From Altererythrobacter sp. BO-6 (GTDB taxonomy: Bacteria; Pseudomonadota; Alphaproteobacteria; Sphingomonadales; Sphingomonadaceae), in contig NZ_CP049259.1 of the NCBI RefSeq assembly GCF_011047315.1, forward strand, positions 806,001-870,000: a DNA stretch of 64,000 nucleotides. The letters are read 5' to 3'. Of this stretch, positions 59,632 to 64,000 are shown piece by piece. Every line of letters starts with the position of its first letter. Positions within the stretch are counted from its first letter, which is position 1. Below the pieces are notes generated by a model. That model worked only from the letters and a program-made list of their open reading frames with translations. It did not search any database and was not told the DNA's origin. A program made the translations under genes and the position numbers.

Positions 59632-60687
59632 TCAGTTCTCCGCCTCTTCCTGCATCAGACCATGCTTCTTGATGCAGTGGCGCAACTGGTCATAAGTCAG
59701 ACCGAGCGCTTTTGCCGTCTGCCGCTGGTTCCAGCGATGCTTGCCGAGCGCGTGCTCGACGATCGCCCGCTCATGAGCATCGACCGCGCCGCGTAGATCA
59801 TCGATCGCGTCGAGGTCTGCTGCACCGGCACCGCTATGGGCCACGTCCCGCCCAGACCTGGCCGAGTTCGACTGCGATGGCAGGTCTGTGCGATGCGAAG
59901 GCGCTGACGGCTTCCAAGGACTATCGAACGGATCGAACTGGACATGCCCGATCGGCTCGCCGGTATCCTCCCACCGGTACACCGCGCGCTCGATCACATT
60001 ACGCAATTCGCGGACATTACCGGGCCACTGATATTCTTCCAGCTGGCGCTGCACATGTGGTGCAAATCCGGGCCATTCGCGCCAGGCCAGCTCAGCTGCC
60101 ATCCGCCGCCCGAAATAGTCCGTGAGAACACCCACGTCCCCTTCGCGCACGCGGAGCGGCGGCAGAGTGATCACTTCAAAGCTCAGCCGGTCAAGCAGGT
60201 CGGCCCGGAAATCGCCTCGCTCGGCCATTTTCGGCAGGTCGTCATTGGTCGCTGCGACAATCCGCACATCCACGCGGATCGGGCGCGACGAACCGATCCG
60301 GGTCACTTCGCCATATTCCACCGCGCGCAGCAGCCGCTCTTGCGCCGCCATCGACAGATTGCCCAGTTCGTCGAGAAACAGCGTACCTTTGTCGGCTTCT
60401 TCGAACCTTCCCGCGCGCGCTCTGGTAGCACCCGTGAATGCCCCAGCTTCGTGCCCGAACAGTTCCGCTTCGATCAGCGTTTCCGGCAAGGCGGCGCAGT
60501 TCATCACCACCAGCGGTTCATCCCACCGGGTCGAAAGGCGATGAAGGCGTTCGGCGATGAGCTCCTTGCCGGTCCCGCGCTCTCCGATCACCAGCACCGG
60601 GCGGCTCATCGGCGCAGCGCGGCTGGCGCGCTCGACCGCGTCAAGGAAGGCCCCCGATTGGCCGATGAACTGGTTATCGCGCTCCAC
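59632..60687 (-). CDS. pspF: PspF, sigma-54-dependent activator of the psp operon
   Basis: A bacterial enhancer-binding protein of 351 residues lacking a receiver domain, as PspF does. The AAA+ core has Walker A IGERGTGKEL, the sigma-54-contacting loop GHEAGAFTGA, Walker B TLFLDELG and the sensor RVREGDVGVLTDYF. The C-terminal Fis-type HTH is HRWNQRQTAKALGLTYDQLRHCIKKHG. The start is GTG 60687 (VERDNQFIGQS), which matches the E. coli PspF N-terminus; the further-upstream frame crosses the divergent promoter. In E. coli it is held inactive by PspA, which is encoded divergently. Confidence 0.93.
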   Translation of the reverse strand: MERDNQFIGQSGAFLDAVERASRAAPMSRPVLVIGERGTGKELIAERLHRLSTRWDEPLVVMNCAALPETLIEAELFGHEAGAFTGATRARAGRFEEADKGTLFLDELGNLSMAAQERLLRAVEYGEVTRIGSSRPIRVDVRIVAATNDDLPKMAERGDFRADLLDRLSFEVITLPPLRVREGDVGVLTDYFGRRMAAELAWREWPGFAPHVQRQLEEYQWPGNVRELRNVIERAVYRWEDTGEPIGHVQFDPFDSPWKPSAPSHRTDLPSQSNSARSGRDVAHSGAGAADLDAIDDLRGAVDAHERAIVEHALGKHRWNQRQTAKALGLTYDQLRHCIKKHGLMQEEAEN

Positions 60688-60756
60688 AGGCCAATCTATA
60701 GTGATATTTCCCAATCCTTGGCAAGATACGCCATGTTGAAAATTCAGGAAATCCTC

Positions 60757-60770
60757 TATCAATATGTATT
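60757..60770 (+). promoter_or_regulatory. Candidate IHF site upstream of the psp promoter
   Basis: TATCAATATGTATT is close to the IHF consensus WATCAANNNNTTR and lies about 30 bp ahead of the sigma-54 promoter in A/T-rich DNA, the place where IHF bends DNA in other psp promoters. It has one mismatch. Confidence 0.45.
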
Positions 60771-60787
60771 TAAATTGTTTTTTTGGT

Positions 60788-60804
60788 TTGGCACGCCCCT
60801 TGCT
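60788..60804 (+). promoter_or_regulatory. Sigma-54 promoter of the psp operon
   Basis: TTGGCACGCCCCTTGCT matches the -24/-12 consensus (TGGCAC-N5-TTGC) with correct spacing. It is 33 bp ahead of the first psp ATG and is faced by pspF, the cognate activator. Confidence 0.9.
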
Positions 60805-60836
60805 GTTATGTGAACGTATAGCAAGGAGGCTTTGAA

Positions 60837-60995
60837 ATGTACGATCGCCGGTTCTTCCAGAGCAAGCTGGGACAGGCCGCAATGGTCAGCATTGCTGCAA
60901 TGGTCGCGTTCGTCGCCCTCAGCACGCAGATGTATGCTTCCCCCGCCCAGGCCGCTGTGGTCTGCGCGCAGGGCGAGCTGGTTGAACTGGCATGA
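60837..60995 (+). CDS. Small psp leader protein (52 residues, one hydrophobic segment)
   Basis: This is the first gene behind the sigma-54 promoter, with AAGGAGG upstream. It starts MYDRRFFQSKLGQ, then a hydrophobic stretch AAMVSIAAMVAFVALS, then YASPAQAAVVCAQGELVELA. It could be a single-pass membrane peptide or a secreted one with cleavage after AQA. Its TGA overlaps the ATG at 60992 (ATGA). The frame is too short for automatic calling, but its position, ribosome site and coupling support it. Its function is unknown. Confidence 0.7.
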   Translation: MYDRRFFQSKLGQAAMVSIAAMVAFVALSTQMYASPAQAAVVCAQGELVELA

Positions 60996-61939
60996 CCGGT
61001 CCAACCAAAGATACCCCCCTCGGGCCGGAGCGCTCAGTCCCCCCCCTGAAATCCTCAGGTATGAGCAACCCAGCTGGCGCCACATCCAGTCGCGGCGCCG
61101 ACGCTCCGGCCCAACCCTTCTCGCCCGAACGCCTTGTCAAGCGTTCGCGGCTTGATGCAGAGATCGAACGCCTGCGCCAGAGCCCGACTCCGACGCAGTC
61201 GAGCGCTCGCTCGAATGATGATGACAGTTTCTTCAACGGAGTAGCCTTCATGGGCATTTTCAGCCGTACCCGCGATATCATTGCCGCCAACTTCAACGAC
61301 ATGCTCGACAAGGCCGATGACCCGGCCAAGATGATCCGCATGATCATCCTCGAGATGGAGGAGACGCTGGTGGAAGTGCGGGCCAGCGCGGCGCGCACCA
61401 TTGCGGACCAGAAGGAAATGCATCGCCATATCGTCAAGCTCGACCGGCTGCAGGCCGACTGGGCGGACAAGGCGCAGCTGGCGCTGAGCAAGGATCGTGA
61501 AGACCTAGCCCGCGCGGCACTGGTCGAAAAGAAGAAGGCGGCCGACATGGCCGACCAGCTCAAGCAGGAAATCGCCGTGCTCGACGACGCACTGCGCGCT
61601 TACGAGGAAGACATCCAGAAGCTGCAGCACCGTCTGCGCGAGGCGCGTAGCCGCCAGACTGCAATCGCCGCCCGCCTCGAAAGCGCGGAGAACCGGGTCA
61701 AACTGCGCACGCTGATGAGCACCGAGCGCACCGATGAGGCGCTGGCCCGCTTCGATCAGCTGGAACGCCGGGTCGACTATGCCGAAGGCCGCGCCGAAGC
61801 GCTGCAGATTGCCGACGGCAGCGGCAAGCTGACGCTGGCAGACGAGATCGCTGCGCTCGAAGGTGCCGACGCGATCGATAACGAACTTGAAGAACTGAAG
61901 AAGGCGCTGGGCAAGGGCAGCGCCGAGAAGGAGGGCTGA
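60992..61939 (+). CDS. pspA: Phage shock protein PspA (long frame; core form starts at 61250)
   Basis: PspA is a coiled-coil ESCRT-III-like protein that binds damaged inner membrane and inhibits PspF. The core from ATG 61250 (MGIFSRTRDIIAANFNDMLDKADDP) is 229 residues, the usual length, with CGGAG 8 nt before it. An in-frame ATG at 60992, coupled to the leader stop, would add 86 residues of Pro/Ser-rich sequence containing RLDAEIERLRQ, resembling the tails of later psp proteins. Which start is used cannot be decided; both might be. The helices ALRAYEEDIQKLQHRLREARSRQ and the acidic end are typical. Confidence 0.93.
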   Translation: MTGPTKDTPLGPERSVPPLKSSGMSNPAGATSSRGADAPAQPFSPERLVKRSRLDAEIERLRQSPTPTQSSARSNDDDSFFNGVAFMGIFSRTRDIIAANFNDMLDKADDPAKMIRMIILEMEETLVEVRASAARTIADQKEMHRHIVKLDRLQADWADKAQLALSKDREDLARAALVEKKKAADMADQLKQEIAVLDDALRAYEEDIQKLQHRLREARSRQTAIAARLESAENRVKLRTLMSTERTDEALARFDQLERRVDYAEGRAEALQIADGSGKLTLADEIAALEGADAIDNELEELKKALGKGSAEKEG

Positions 61940-61943
61940 TCAG

Positions 61944-62243
61944 ATGGACGAAGGTTGGATTGCAGTCATTTGCATATTTATCGGGCTGCCGTGGATCATC
62001 CTCCACTATATCACCCGCTGGAAGACCGCTGCGACGATCACGACTGACGACGAAGTGCTGCTGGAAGAGCTGTACAGCCTTGCCAAGCGTCTCGACGAGC
62101 GGATGGACACGGTCGAGCGGCTGGTCGCCAGCGACGACCCGGGCTTCCAGCCCAAGCGCCTGCAGGAAAACCGCGAAACCGATAATCAGCAGCTGCGCGA
62201 GCTCGAACAACTGATGGCCGAAAAGAAAGGAAGCGCACGATGA
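61944..62243 (+). CDS. pspB: PspB family envelope-stress protein
   Basis: An inner-membrane protein of 99 residues: one TM segment (GWIAVICIFIGLPWIILHYI), then a cytoplasmic coiled coil with EELYSLAKRLDERMDTVERLVASDDPGF. The last part corresponds to the PspB pattern R-M-x-E-R-I-x-x-L-E. With PspC it relays stress to PspA in enterobacteria. It starts 4 nt after pspA and overlaps pspC (ATGA). Compared with E. coli PspB (74 residues) it has about 25 additional residues at the end. Confidence 0.88.
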   Translation: MDEGWIAVICIFIGLPWIILHYITRWKTAATITTDDEVLLEELYSLAKRLDERMDTVERLVASDDPGFQPKRLQENRETDNQQLRELEQLMAEKKGSAR

Positions 62244-62617
62244 ACAGCCCTCGCACAACGCTTTACCGCGACAAGCACAATGCCAAGCTGATGGGTGTGT
62301 GTTCGGGGATCGCCGACTACACCGGTGTCGATGCACTTTGGGTTCGCCTGGGCTTTCTGATCCTGTTGTTCACGGTCGCCCCAATCCTGCTGCCTGCCTA
62401 TTTCATTGCTGGAATGCTGCTGAGCAAGAAGCCGCCGCATCTCTATGTCGACAAGGACGAGCAGCAATATTGGCAGCGTGTCCGCCAGAGCCCCAAGCGC
62501 ACCGCACGCGAAATCCGCGCCCGCTTTCGCGACGTCGACCGCCGCCTGGCCGAGGTCGAGCACTATTATGTCAGCAGCAACCCGCGCCTGACCGCTGAAA
62601 TCGAGCGCCTGCGCTAA
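62240..62617 (+). CDS. pspC: PspC domain protein
   Basis: An inner-membrane psp sensor of 125 residues. The PspC domain is TLYRDKHNAKLMGVCSGIADYTGVDALWVRLGFLILLF, with a second hydrophobic stretch to FIAGMLLSKKPP. The C-terminal coiled coil is RDVDRRLAEVEHYYVSSNPRLTAEIERLR, matching the corresponding E. coli PspC tail (REMERYVTSDTF). It forms ATGA with pspB. The TAEIERLR ending is echoed by several following proteins. Confidence 0.92.
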   Translation: MNSPRTTLYRDKHNAKLMGVCSGIADYTGVDALWVRLGFLILLFTVAPILLPAYFIAGMLLSKKPPHLYVDKDEQQYWQRVRQSPKRTAREIRARFRDVDRRLAEVEHYYVSSNPRLTAEIERLR

Positions 62618-62642
62618 GGATACGCAAAGGGAGGATCACGCC

Positions 62643-62954
62643 GTGGAAGAATTTATACCGATCTTCGCGATCATGATGGTTTTCGGCATTCCAATGCTGG
62701 CCATCTGGACAAGCCACCAGCAGAAGATCGCCAAACTGCAGATCACCGCTACTGCAGAGAATACCGCTGAAAAGGCTGCGCAATATGCCAGCAAGATCCA
62801 GCTGCTTGAGGACCGGGTGCAAGTGCTCGAGCGGATCGTCACCGACAAGGGCTATGACGTGGCGACGCAAATCGAGGCGTTGCGCGACCAGCGCCGGGTG
62901 GATGACCAGGGCAGTGGTGTGCCGCTGACCATGAACAGCAAGGAGCGCGCGTGA
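62643..62954 (+). CDS. PspB/PspC-tail membrane protein, paralog 1
   Basis: A protein of 103 residues starting at GTG behind GGGAGG. There is one N-terminal TM (FIPIFAIMMVFGIPMLAIW), a helical linker rich in Ala/Glu, then the cassette LLEDRVQVLERIVTDKGYDVATQIEALRDQ (54-83) and a short hydrophilic end. The cassette is shared with the next three genes and with PspB/PspC. I know no name for it. It is probably an additional psp envelope component; its stop overlaps the next start. Confidence 0.8.
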   Translation: MEEFIPIFAIMMVFGIPMLAIWTSHQQKIAKLQITATAENTAEKAAQYASKIQLLEDRVQVLERIVTDKGYDVATQIEALRDQRRVDDQGSGVPLTMNSKERA

Positions 62955-63277
62955 TGGATGCTGCAGCACTCTCGGTTCTTGCCCCGGTGATCGGCGGTGG
63001 GATGGTGGCTATGTCCATCGCATGGGTCGCCAACACGTGGATCAGGGTCAAGAACGGCTATCCGCTCGATGGCGCCTGGGGCCAGGCGGTCTACCCCAAG
63101 AAGAATGACGAAGCGATCGAGCGTGTCAAACTGCTGACTCAGGAAAACGCCCAACTGCGCGCCGAACTTGGGTCGATGAAGGACCGTTTGGCCAATGTGG
63201 AACGGATCGTCACAGACAGCGGCTATCACCTGACCCACGAAATCGAGCGACTGCGTGAAGAGAAGGGGGTCAACTGA
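62954..63277 (+). CDS. PspB/PspC-tail membrane protein, paralog 2
   Basis: A protein of 107 residues from ATG 62954 (TGATG overlap; GTG 62951 is an alternative). It has one TM (APVIGGGMVAMSIAWVANTWI), a segment YPLDGAWGQAVYPKKNDEAIERVK, then MKDRLANVERIVTDSGYHLTHEIERLREEKG (75-104). The cassette is nearly the same as in paralog 1 and ends as PspC does. The middle part is different from the other paralogs, so these proteins share the tail, not the body. Confidence 0.8.
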   Translation: MDAAALSVLAPVIGGGMVAMSIAWVANTWIRVKNGYPLDGAWGQAVYPKKNDEAIERVKLLTQENAQLRAELGSMKDRLANVERIVTDSGYHLTHEIERLREEKGVN

Positions 63278-63591
63278 TGAATGTCGATCTGCTTCTCATT
63301 TTCGCTTTTGTCCTTACAGTTTGCCTGATCGTCTTCCCGTTCGCCTTTACCATTCACCGCCGTACGGTGGAGCATGAAGAACGCAAGCTGGAACTCAAGG
63401 CACGTATCGAGGAAGCCAAGGCCAGTCGTTCCAATGCCGACGTCGAGGCACATCGCAAGCTGGAAGAGCGGGTGCGCGTGCTTGAACGGATTGCTACCGA
63501 CAGCAACCACGCGCTTGCCAGCCAGATCGAGCAACTGCGCGACCTGCACGAAATGGATGCCATTTCGGAAAAGCGGGAGATTGCACGATGA
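63277..63591 (+). CDS. PspB/PspC-tail membrane protein, paralog 3
   Basis: A protein of 104 residues. The N-terminal TM is LLLIFAFVLTVCLIVFPFAFTI, followed by a highly charged helix (EHEERKLELKARIEEAKASR) and the cassette KLEERVRVLERIATDSNHALASQIEQLRDL (61-90). Its start overlaps the previous stop (TGATG), and its own stop overlaps the next start (ATGA). Function unknown. Confidence 0.8.
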   Translation: MNVDLLLIFAFVLTVCLIVFPFAFTIHRRTVEHEERKLELKARIEEAKASRSNADVEAHRKLEERVRVLERIATDSNHALASQIEQLRDLHEMDAISEKREIAR

Positions 63592-63878
63592 GTTGGGCCT
63601 CGGCCGTCGTCCTCATCGTATTGATCACCGCAATTGCCGGCGTGATGCGCTCGCGCCATCGCGGTGGCCGCAGATTGCGCGATGGCGAGCAGGGCCAGTC
63701 TCACCTGCCAAGCGCACGCGAACAGCAGCTTGAGCGCGAAGTCGATGATTTGCGCGAACGCATCAAGGTGCTGGAACGGATCGCCACCGAAGGCAATACG
63801 ATCGAAGCACGCGAAACCCGGCGGATCGCCGAAGAAATCGAAAGCCTGCGTGACCAGCAGGGCCAACACGGCAATTAG
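63588..63878 (+). CDS. PspB/PspC-tail membrane protein, paralog 4
   Basis: A protein of 96 residues. One short TM (WASAVVLIVLITAIAGVM) is followed by a basic patch RSRHRGGRRLR and the cassette DDLRERIKVLERIATEGNTIEARETRR...AEEIESLRDQQ (53-90). The cassette has an insertion before the final EIESLR compared with the others. It is translationally coupled to paralog 3. Confidence 0.8.
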   Translation: MSWASAVVLIVLITAIAGVMRSRHRGGRRLRDGEQGQSHLPSAREQQLEREVDDLRERIKVLERIATEGNTIEARETRRIAEEIESLRDQQGQHGN

Positions 63879-63907
63879 GTCACAGGTTCAAGGAGGACAT
63901 GAGGGAT

Positions 63908-64000
63908 ATGTTCGAACCGACATTGATTATCGCCGCCGCCTCGCTTGTCGGCCTTTGCGTGGTCGCGTTCGCGCTGCTCAAGGCGTGGCAAGGCTGGCTG
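63908..64000 (+). CDS. Start of a further psp-operon membrane protein (runs off the window)
   Basis: ATG 63908 (or 63899 in the same frame) follows AAGGAGG. It gives MFEPTLIIAAASLVGLCVVAFALLKAWQGWL, a single TM start like those of the preceding paralogs, and is still open at the window edge. Whether it has the tail cassette cannot be seen. Confidence 0.65.
   Translation, partial: MFEPTLIIAAASLVGLCVVAFALLKAWQGWL

Follow-up and report, generated by a model that had tools for sequence, protein, structure and literature searches.

Lineage-specific amplification of PspB-like tail proteins in the psp operon of Altererythrobacter sp. BO-6

Gene content of the psp operon

The window analyzed here, a stretch of 64,000 nucleotides of Altererythrobacter sp. 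BO-6 (positions 806001 to 870000 of a genome that consists of one contig of 3,035,715 bases), ends within a phage shock protein (psp) operon in which pspC is followed by five small genes, designated X1 to X5, that represent an expansion, specific to this lineage, of PspB-like tail proteins in a known psp system. The operon, cut by the window end, is arranged in the order divergent pspF, sigma-54 site, s52, pspA, pspB, pspC, and X1 to X5, and a SufE-like open reading frame (ORF; named by eye) comes next after X5. Each of X1 to X4 carries an N-terminal hydrophobic stretch (by eye), read as a transmembrane (TM) segment, and a C-terminal coiled-coil cassette, referred to below as the tail; X5 ends in ...LKERIKKLEAIASGVDL, a truncated cassette. 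The features are as follows, in window numbering and with expectation (E) values where available.

59632-60882, minus strand: pspF, sigma-54 activator, divergent from the operon (TIGR02974, 479.6 bits; cut-off, 443.55)
60789-60803, plus strand: sigma-54 -24/-12 site TGGCACGCCCCTTGC, read from the sequence
60837-60995, plus strand: s52, small hydrophobic protein of 52 amino acids, first ORF 3' of the promoter (phmmer match in 80 of 80 loci)
60992-61249, plus strand: N-terminal extension of PspA, in frame (open frame; predicted disorder except for one helix)
61148-61177, plus strand: helix motif RLDAEIERLR within the PspA extension (pattern match)
61250-61939, plus strand: pspA proper (TIGR02977, 274.7 bits; cut-off, 242.95; from residue 87 of the long ORF)
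61944-62243, plus strand: pspB (TIGR02976, 90.2 bits; cut-off, 51.7)
62240-62617, plus strand: pspC, whose tail ends in RLTAEIERLR at 62585-62614 (TIGR02978, 132 bits; cut-off, 104)
62643-62954, plus strand: X1, TM segment and tail, tail core 62784-62885 (A1 E value, 2.8e-16; PspB model, 2.7e-4, below cut-off)
62951-63277, plus strand: X2, TM segment and tail, core 63155-63256, HLTHEIERLR at 63227-63256 (A1 E value, 1.7e-14; PspC model, 1.6e-4, below cut-off)
63277-63591, plus strand: X3, TM segment and tail, core 63445-63540 (A1 E value, 3.1e-15)
63588-63878, plus strand: X4, TM segment and insertion-bearing tail, core 63732-63851, RIAEEIESLR at 63822-63851 (A1 E value, 1.7e-9; hhalign score, 40 to 49 against X1 to X3)
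63908-64141, plus strand: X5, TM segment and truncated tail, leaving the window at 64000 (hhalign score, 33 against X4; best PspA window, 14.2)

An earlier note on this DNA had described four TM-plus-tail genes behind pspC, with all genes coupled end to start behind one sigma-54 promoter. The four genes X1 to X4 with the tails quoted for them are borne out, and the sigma-54 site reads TGGCACGCCCCTTGC, but the actual number of genes is five, X5 lying partly outside the window, and the coupling is incomplete: the intergenic gaps are 4 nucleotides for pspA-pspB, -4 for pspB-pspC, 25 for pspC-X1, -4 for X1-X2, -1 for X2-X3, -4 for X3-X4, and 29 for X4-X5, which leaves pspA-pspB, pspC-X1, and X4-X5 without overlap. 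The sigma-54 promoter and the adjoining pspF, which scores over its cut-off, place the operon in a putative PspF regulon, and 72 of 80 related loci have a perfect TGGCACN5TTGC within 700 nucleotides 5' of pspA. Most of the named relatives retrieved through PspA belong to Erythrobacter, Altererythrobacter, Qipengyuania, and related genera, some being named only to order or class.

Homology and conservation of the tail

The tails of X1 to X4 score 40 to 75 against one another in hhalign, as compared with at most 18.4 against any tail for a natural control of 31 46-column windows from the PspA coiled coil, and the single, duplicated tail proposed in the earlier note stands. Conservation is higher in the tail than in the body in each of the seven groups, and BLASTP among the X bodies gave no convincing similarity. 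The comparison of tail and body drew on groups of a 112-locus set in which some loci are overlapping pieces of the own genome and some species may be represented more than once; owing to this redundancy, copy numbers were taken from 63 fetched genomes of the window's family instead. An AlphaFold2 (AF2) model of X1 gives one helix from residue 4 to 90 (mean predicted local distance difference test [pLDDT] score, 72), and a helix-turn-helix tail is accordingly unsupported.

Against broad alignments of PspB and PspC tails, composed of E. coli, other alphaproteobacteria, and some family members, the hhalign scores (PspB/PspC) were 27/29 for X1, 29/42 for X2, 21/23 for X3, 21/15 for X4, 15/12 for X5, and 25/30 for the unlinked tails of other families that are described below. 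None of 40 heptad-preserving shuffles reached the scores of X1 to X4 or of the unlinked tails, X4 clearing the shuffles barely for PspB (20.7 versus 20.5); homology to the PspB tail is therefore found in this test for X1 to X4, for X4 only just, and not for X5, whose two scores were reached by 2 and 9 of 40 shuffles, so that direct homology of X5 to the PspB/PspC tails is unsupported. The earlier note had made its shared-module idea depend on the tails scoring above generic coiled coils in comparison with PspB and PspC, which X1 to X3 do and X4 does less clearly, X5 making no direct pass; the likeness that it saw between PspB and PspC tails in general proved modest, with a score of 18.75 that 1 of 80 shuffles also attained. 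When the profiles were restricted to the family, the link to PspC was upheld for X2 (41.8) and X3 (21.9) and, narrowly, for X1 (19.1 versus a control of 17.7) and for X4 (17.5 versus 13.4), and the link to PspB for X2 alone (21.0 versus 15.9).

A rank test among 6060 ORFs from 486.5 kb of the own genome was based on a PspC-tail hidden Markov model (HMM) trained on 13 sequences, all from outside the window's family, and on a matching PspB-tail HMM of 16 sequences. The five best ORFs of the PspC-tail HMM were PspC (E = 6.8e-8), X2 (7.3e-5), X3 (8.2e-4), X1 (8.5e-3), and PspB (0.21), the next having an E value of 1, so that X2, X3, and X1 occupy ranks 2 to 4 while X4 and X5 fall outside the top five. 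The PspB-tail HMM placed PspB, X1, X3, and X2 at the top and X4 sixth, with weak values for the X proteins (E = 0.07 to 0.52).

Among NCBIfam models at an E value of ≤0.01, the PspC model matched 55 of 55 X1 homologues and the PspB model 54 of 55, these being the two commonest families; unrelated models match as well, the next commonest being an IS1182 transposase (35 of 55), and the displayed member lies far below the PspB and PspC cut-offs. In Pfam, only X1 had PspB as its first match, the best matches of X2 and X3 being the coiled-coil family ZapB (6.2e-4) and DUF6377 (4.3e-3), both below cut-off, and the PspC domain itself (PF04024) had no match in X1 to X4 at E ≤ 1 or in X5 at E ≤ 0.1. 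The 120 best X1 homologues listed bear out the earlier note's remark that the extra proteins have no described function insofar as the displayed NCBI names are "hypothetical protein," with the amendment that one UniRef name begins "Phage shock prot."

Distribution across genomes

A profile search with 23 tails recovered four places in the own genome, which are X1 to X4. The tail model, which does not detect PspB or PspC themselves, had matches in 120 of 147 genomes of the order, including 64 of 64 of the window's family, where at least two places were found in 63. Searched in the psp loci of relatives, as the earlier note had suggested, the cassette model identified 2 to 7 tail-type genes behind pspC in all 63 family genomes (26 genera), namely 2 genes in 4 genomes, 3 in 6, 4 in 20, 5 in 17, 6 in 14, and 7 in 2, at a liberal threshold (E ≤ 0.01) and with X5-type genes included. 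In 17 psp loci fetched from other families, two tail genes were never found and one tail gene was found in three, and 13 of 19 pieces from other families contained no pspA, pspB, or pspC ORF next to the tail gene; in those families it is mostly single and unlinked. A tail family reaching beyond the order was rejected, as only 2 of 142 class genomes had a match, namely the own genome and another genome of its family. The lack of the tail in the class is partly due to the absence of Psp there, PspC having been detected in 13 of 115 class genomes.

PspA is present in 134 of the 147 genomes of the order. A tail gene without PspA occurred in 0 of 107 genomes of at least 90% completeness and in 2 of 120 overall, both 62 to 67% complete, so that a tail gene independent of Psp is unsupported. 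The co-occurrence gave Fisher P values of 2.7e-5 and 6.8e-8, calculated from hand-made tables that ignore kinship and in which seven tail-less genomes were assigned by elimination. For the unlinked tail genes, 33 loci were scanned for a sigma-54 site, of which one had no tail by the pattern and one had too short an upstream region; among the 31 scored, no site with 0 or 1 mismatch was detected and three had sites with 2 mismatches, as compared with 0.4% (1 mismatch) and 3.3% (2 mismatches) in 700 shuffles. With none better than these three, a pspG-like membership of the unlinked genes in the PspF regulon is unsupported.

Three further arrangements were seen outside the family. In the psp operon of one such family (f8), pspC is followed by an additional short gene with a PspC domain and by a single tail gene (L117-L121, L124, L251-L253). 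At L130, L132, and L133, two tail genes adjoin each other in a fetched piece that contains no psp gene, perhaps an incipient duplication outside the operon, and at L116 and L128 an unlinked tail gene is divergent from a similar exported ORF (..CAQGTC.., by eye).

The PspA extension and the closing heptad

The frame 5' of the canonical PspA start is open for at least 70 codons in 80 of 80 loci, and in the window the stop of s52 overlaps the start of the extension (ATGA). The word GPE occurs in 73 of the 80 loci and the helix motif in 72; apart from GPER and S-R-L-D-x-E-[IV]-E-x-L-R-R-S-P-T-P-T-Q, the extension is variable. In 60 aligned extensions (59 of 85 homologues and the window, all retrieved by resemblance to the extension), R53, E57, R62, P65, T66, T68, and Q69 are invariant, and residues 1 to 90 as the query retrieved 85 proteins, all with a PspA domain and 219 to 341 amino acids long. 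The PspA_IM30 domain covers residues 88 to 306 (PF04012, 121.6 bits; cut-off, 33.9), leaving the extension outside. AF2 predicts a largely disordered arm, with pLDDT values of 36 to 44 in blocks of 10 residues except for 71 (residues 51 to 60) and 52 (residues 61 to 70), and a helix at residues 53 to 63. Across 72 loci, the differences by codon position were distributed 0.245/0.183/0.572 in the motif stretch of the extension and 0.125/0.087/0.789 in PspA proper, a pattern that fits a coding frame, if less sharply than in PspA proper.

It is conceivable that PspA starts at the internal ATG (61250) and that the extension is a separate leader peptide or an untranslated stretch, as the PspA model begins at MGIFSRTRDI, residue 87, and the motif stretch shows less third-position bias than PspA proper; however, we consider this improbable in view of the frame that stays open in every locus, the codon-position differences themselves, the PspA proteins of 311 and 324 amino acids in public records, and the words GPER and SPTPTQ that are conserved in frame. 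In L011, L042, L047, L048, L053, L062, L065, and L076, the PspA frame is open and GPE is kept but the helix motif is not matched by the pattern, L011 having RIDREAQRAR in its place. In the 63 family genomes, the arm motif was found in 21, all of them with s52, and s52 in 28. The s52 protein, whose N-terminal sequence is MYDRxFFxSKLGQAA..., matched no Pfam family over cut-off.

The helix of the arm is a copy of the heptad that closes the tails, as is apparent from RLDAEIERLR in the PspA arm, RLTAEIERLR at the end of PspC, HLTHEIERLR in X2, and RIAEEIESLR in X4. The pattern [RH][LIFM]xx[EQ][IV][ED]xLR, which was written after the proteins had been seen, so that its counts test specificity only, had 244 matches in 1.62 million amino acids of six-frame ORFs from the 80 loci and one match in shuffled ORFs; since the loci are related, the 244 matches are not independent. 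They divide into 77 in PspC, 73 in the PspA arm, 47 in X2, 36 in X4, and 11 left unassigned by the script, which all lie inside the psp region (by eye, one looks like a tail and the other 10 like X4), and none was found outside the psp region in the 80 loci. In a sample of the own genome (714,034 amino acids), four of five matches were PspC, the PspA arm, X2, and X4, and the fifth was in a 109-amino-acid open frame elsewhere.

Discussion

The hand-over of the signal from PspB and PspC to PspA is the step on which these findings bear, since this lineage has multiplied the tail that probably performs it and has copied the closing heptad of that tail into PspA. According to the relevant passage of PMC3068692, the PspC zipper of E. 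coli is strictly required for the interaction with PspA, and soluble PspC69-119, a fragment that includes the tail segment compared here, interacts with PspA when PspB is co-expressed; in Yersinia, the C-terminal cytoplasmic domain of PspC binds PspA in the on state, as stated in a passage of PMC5596341. As the tail is kept while the rest of the protein varies, and as the closing heptad is PspC-like, the X proteins can be read as extra anchors for PspA or for the PspB/PspC tails. The interpretation that we favor with moderate confidence is that the X proteins are amplified, divergent PspB-like anchors whose tails dock on PspA and/or on the PspB/PspC tails, next to a PspA whose arm bears a copy of the last heptad. 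In such an arrangement, (i) the X proteins would be single-pass proteins with different bodies and a tail coiled coil homologous to PspB and above all to PspC, the tail probably being cytoplasmic, to judge by eye from basic residues just after the TM stretch; (ii) the tails would most likely dock on PspA and/or pair with PspB/PspC tails; (iii) anchors with different sensing bodies may compete to detach PspA from PspF and retain it at the membrane; and (iv) in Erythrobacter-type PspA, the flexible arm ahead of the canonical N terminus, which copies the last tail heptad (RLxxEIExLR), would probably occupy the site of the tails, either in cis or within the PspA polymer, and have to be displaced. 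Competition is suggested by the copy of the last heptad that PspA itself holds. More tentative, and rather doubtful at present, is the proposal that RLxxEIExLR in the arm is a tethered mimic of the PspC/X docking helix, PspA being kept off, or kept in its polymer, by its arm until one or another of the membrane proteins displaces the arm; if true, a bacterial ESCRT-III protein would be under the control of competing tails. In either case, a ten-residue candidate docking helix can be named, together with an organism group in which binding could be separated from sensing.

Several observations weigh against this interpretation. In passages of PMC3068692, the interaction of PspB with PspA in E. 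coli went undetected, and the zipper region of PspC, long assigned to the periplasm, is a matter on which two topologies are argued, so that a common partner does not follow from a common tail. X1, X3, and X4 score only 21.1, 10.9, and 17.8 bits with TIGR02976, all below its cut-off of 51.7, X2 is absent from its matches at E ≤ 1, and X5 has no match. X4 fails the PspA-window control for PspC, because PspA windows reach 15.8 against the same broad profiles and X4 14.9, and with family-only profiles the PspB links of X1, X3, and X4 are no stronger than the PspA-window controls. The last heptad is missing from X5, as is a direct link to PspB/PspC. As to distribution, 12 of 119 PspA-bearing genomes of at least 90% completeness have no tail gene, the co-occurrence of tail and PspA is weak evidence because PspA is near-universal in the order, and the unlinked tail genes are not obviously co-induced, given the lack of a convincing sigma-54 site. 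The arm motif is absent from 42 of 63 family genomes and, with a somewhat more stringent pattern, from 8 of 80 loci, and the tails thus do not need it.

Among the alternatives, the tails may pair only with one another, X1 to X5, PspB, and PspC forming mixed bundles that protect the membrane directly and leave PspA untouched. The single helix modeled for X1 resembles a coiled-coil strand, the PspB/PspC inner-membrane complex is sufficient against secretin toxicity in Yersinia (a passage of PMC5596341), and the copy number of the tail genes varies between 2 and 7, all of which would suit such bundles; we nevertheless regard them as unlikely, since the presence of the last heptad in PspA as well suggests that PspA takes part, and since the binding of E. 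coli PspB to PspC is independent of the zipper and has been placed in the TM region (a passage of PMC3068692). Still less probable is a role of the X tails in bringing further sensors or enzymes into the Psp complex, by analogy with PspB and ArcB. An E. coli PspB zipper mutant that loses ArcB and keeps PspC (same passage) and the differing bodies of the paralogues would agree with recruitment, but the tails are alike and should therefore share a partner, and no candidate partner gene was recognized in the operon, which the SufE-like ORF follows. That the tails are generic coiled coils of convergent likeness, in proteins unrelated to PspB and PspC, is very improbable: the bodies without convincing BLASTP similarity, the weak PspB-tail HMM values (E = 0.066 and worse), ZapB as the best Pfam match of X2, and an X4-PspC score that does not beat PspA windows are outweighed by the windows, the shuffles that never reach the scores of X1 to X4, the out-of-family PspC-tail HMM that ranks X2, X3, and X1 right behind PspC, the PspC model matching all 55 X1 homologues, and the location of the X genes in the psp operon, least firmly for X4 and X5.

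The amplified anchors that we favor differ from the known Psp proteins in defined ways. With PspB (TIGR02976/PF06667), which binds PspC and is required for secretin-dependent induction, they share a TM helix followed by a coiled coil and the position adjoining pspA/pspC, X1 covering positions 8 to 67 of 75, but they score below cut-off and occur in several copies, and the tails of X1 to X4 extend, by eye, into an IExLR heptad not present in PspB. The tail of PspC (TIGR02978) is the best match (hhalign, 42 for X2) and has the closing helix RLxxEIERLR, yet a PspC domain is absent from the extra proteins. The PspD and PspG proteins of E. coli are likewise small proteins of the PspF regulon (PspG being so named in passages of PMC5596341 and PMC9239133); unlike the X proteins, PspD is without a tail segment (by eye), and the unlinked tail genes are without convincing sigma-54 sites. 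A resemblance of another kind connects the arm with the MIM1 helix of eukaryotic ESCRT-III proteins, in that both have L-x3-hydrophobic-xx-L-[RK] spacing in an amphipathic helix on the flexible arm of an ESCRT-III protein, and displacement of the arm would be akin to MIM-type tail control. The two are set apart by description, as the arm has E rather than R before the second hydrophobic residue and is N-terminal, while MIM1 is C-terminal.

In print, PMC11237479 gives one line each, in the passages concerned, to a divergent PspB fused at the PspC C terminus and to PspB duplicates in a psp operon (AOL22920.1), and those passages are without the tail signature, copy-number range, phyletic restriction, unlinked copies, and PspA extension reported here. 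PspA and PspC paralogues are treated in PMC9239133, in whose text the words "sphingomonad" and "alphaproteobacter" are absent; psp genes are merely noted in Qipengyuania in a passage of PMC9241875, and the pertinent passage of PMC12358876 concerns yeast ESCRT-III. No paper combining phage shock and PspC with Sphingomonadales was found in a search that left most subscription journals outside, and under the same limit the PspA arm with the closing helix of the tails is the part that was not found in print.

Additional observations

A structure look-up found none for PspC or X1. PspB (61944-62240, residues 63 to 86) matched a PDB entry over 24 residues (E = 3.7e-10), a repetitive secreted protein of 2402 amino acids, and the match was taken as an artefact. 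The host of AOL22920.1 may be an Erythrobacter. A stand-alone PspC-domain protein of 71 amino acids is encoded at ca. 2.72 Mb of the own genome (L004, 4578-4793).

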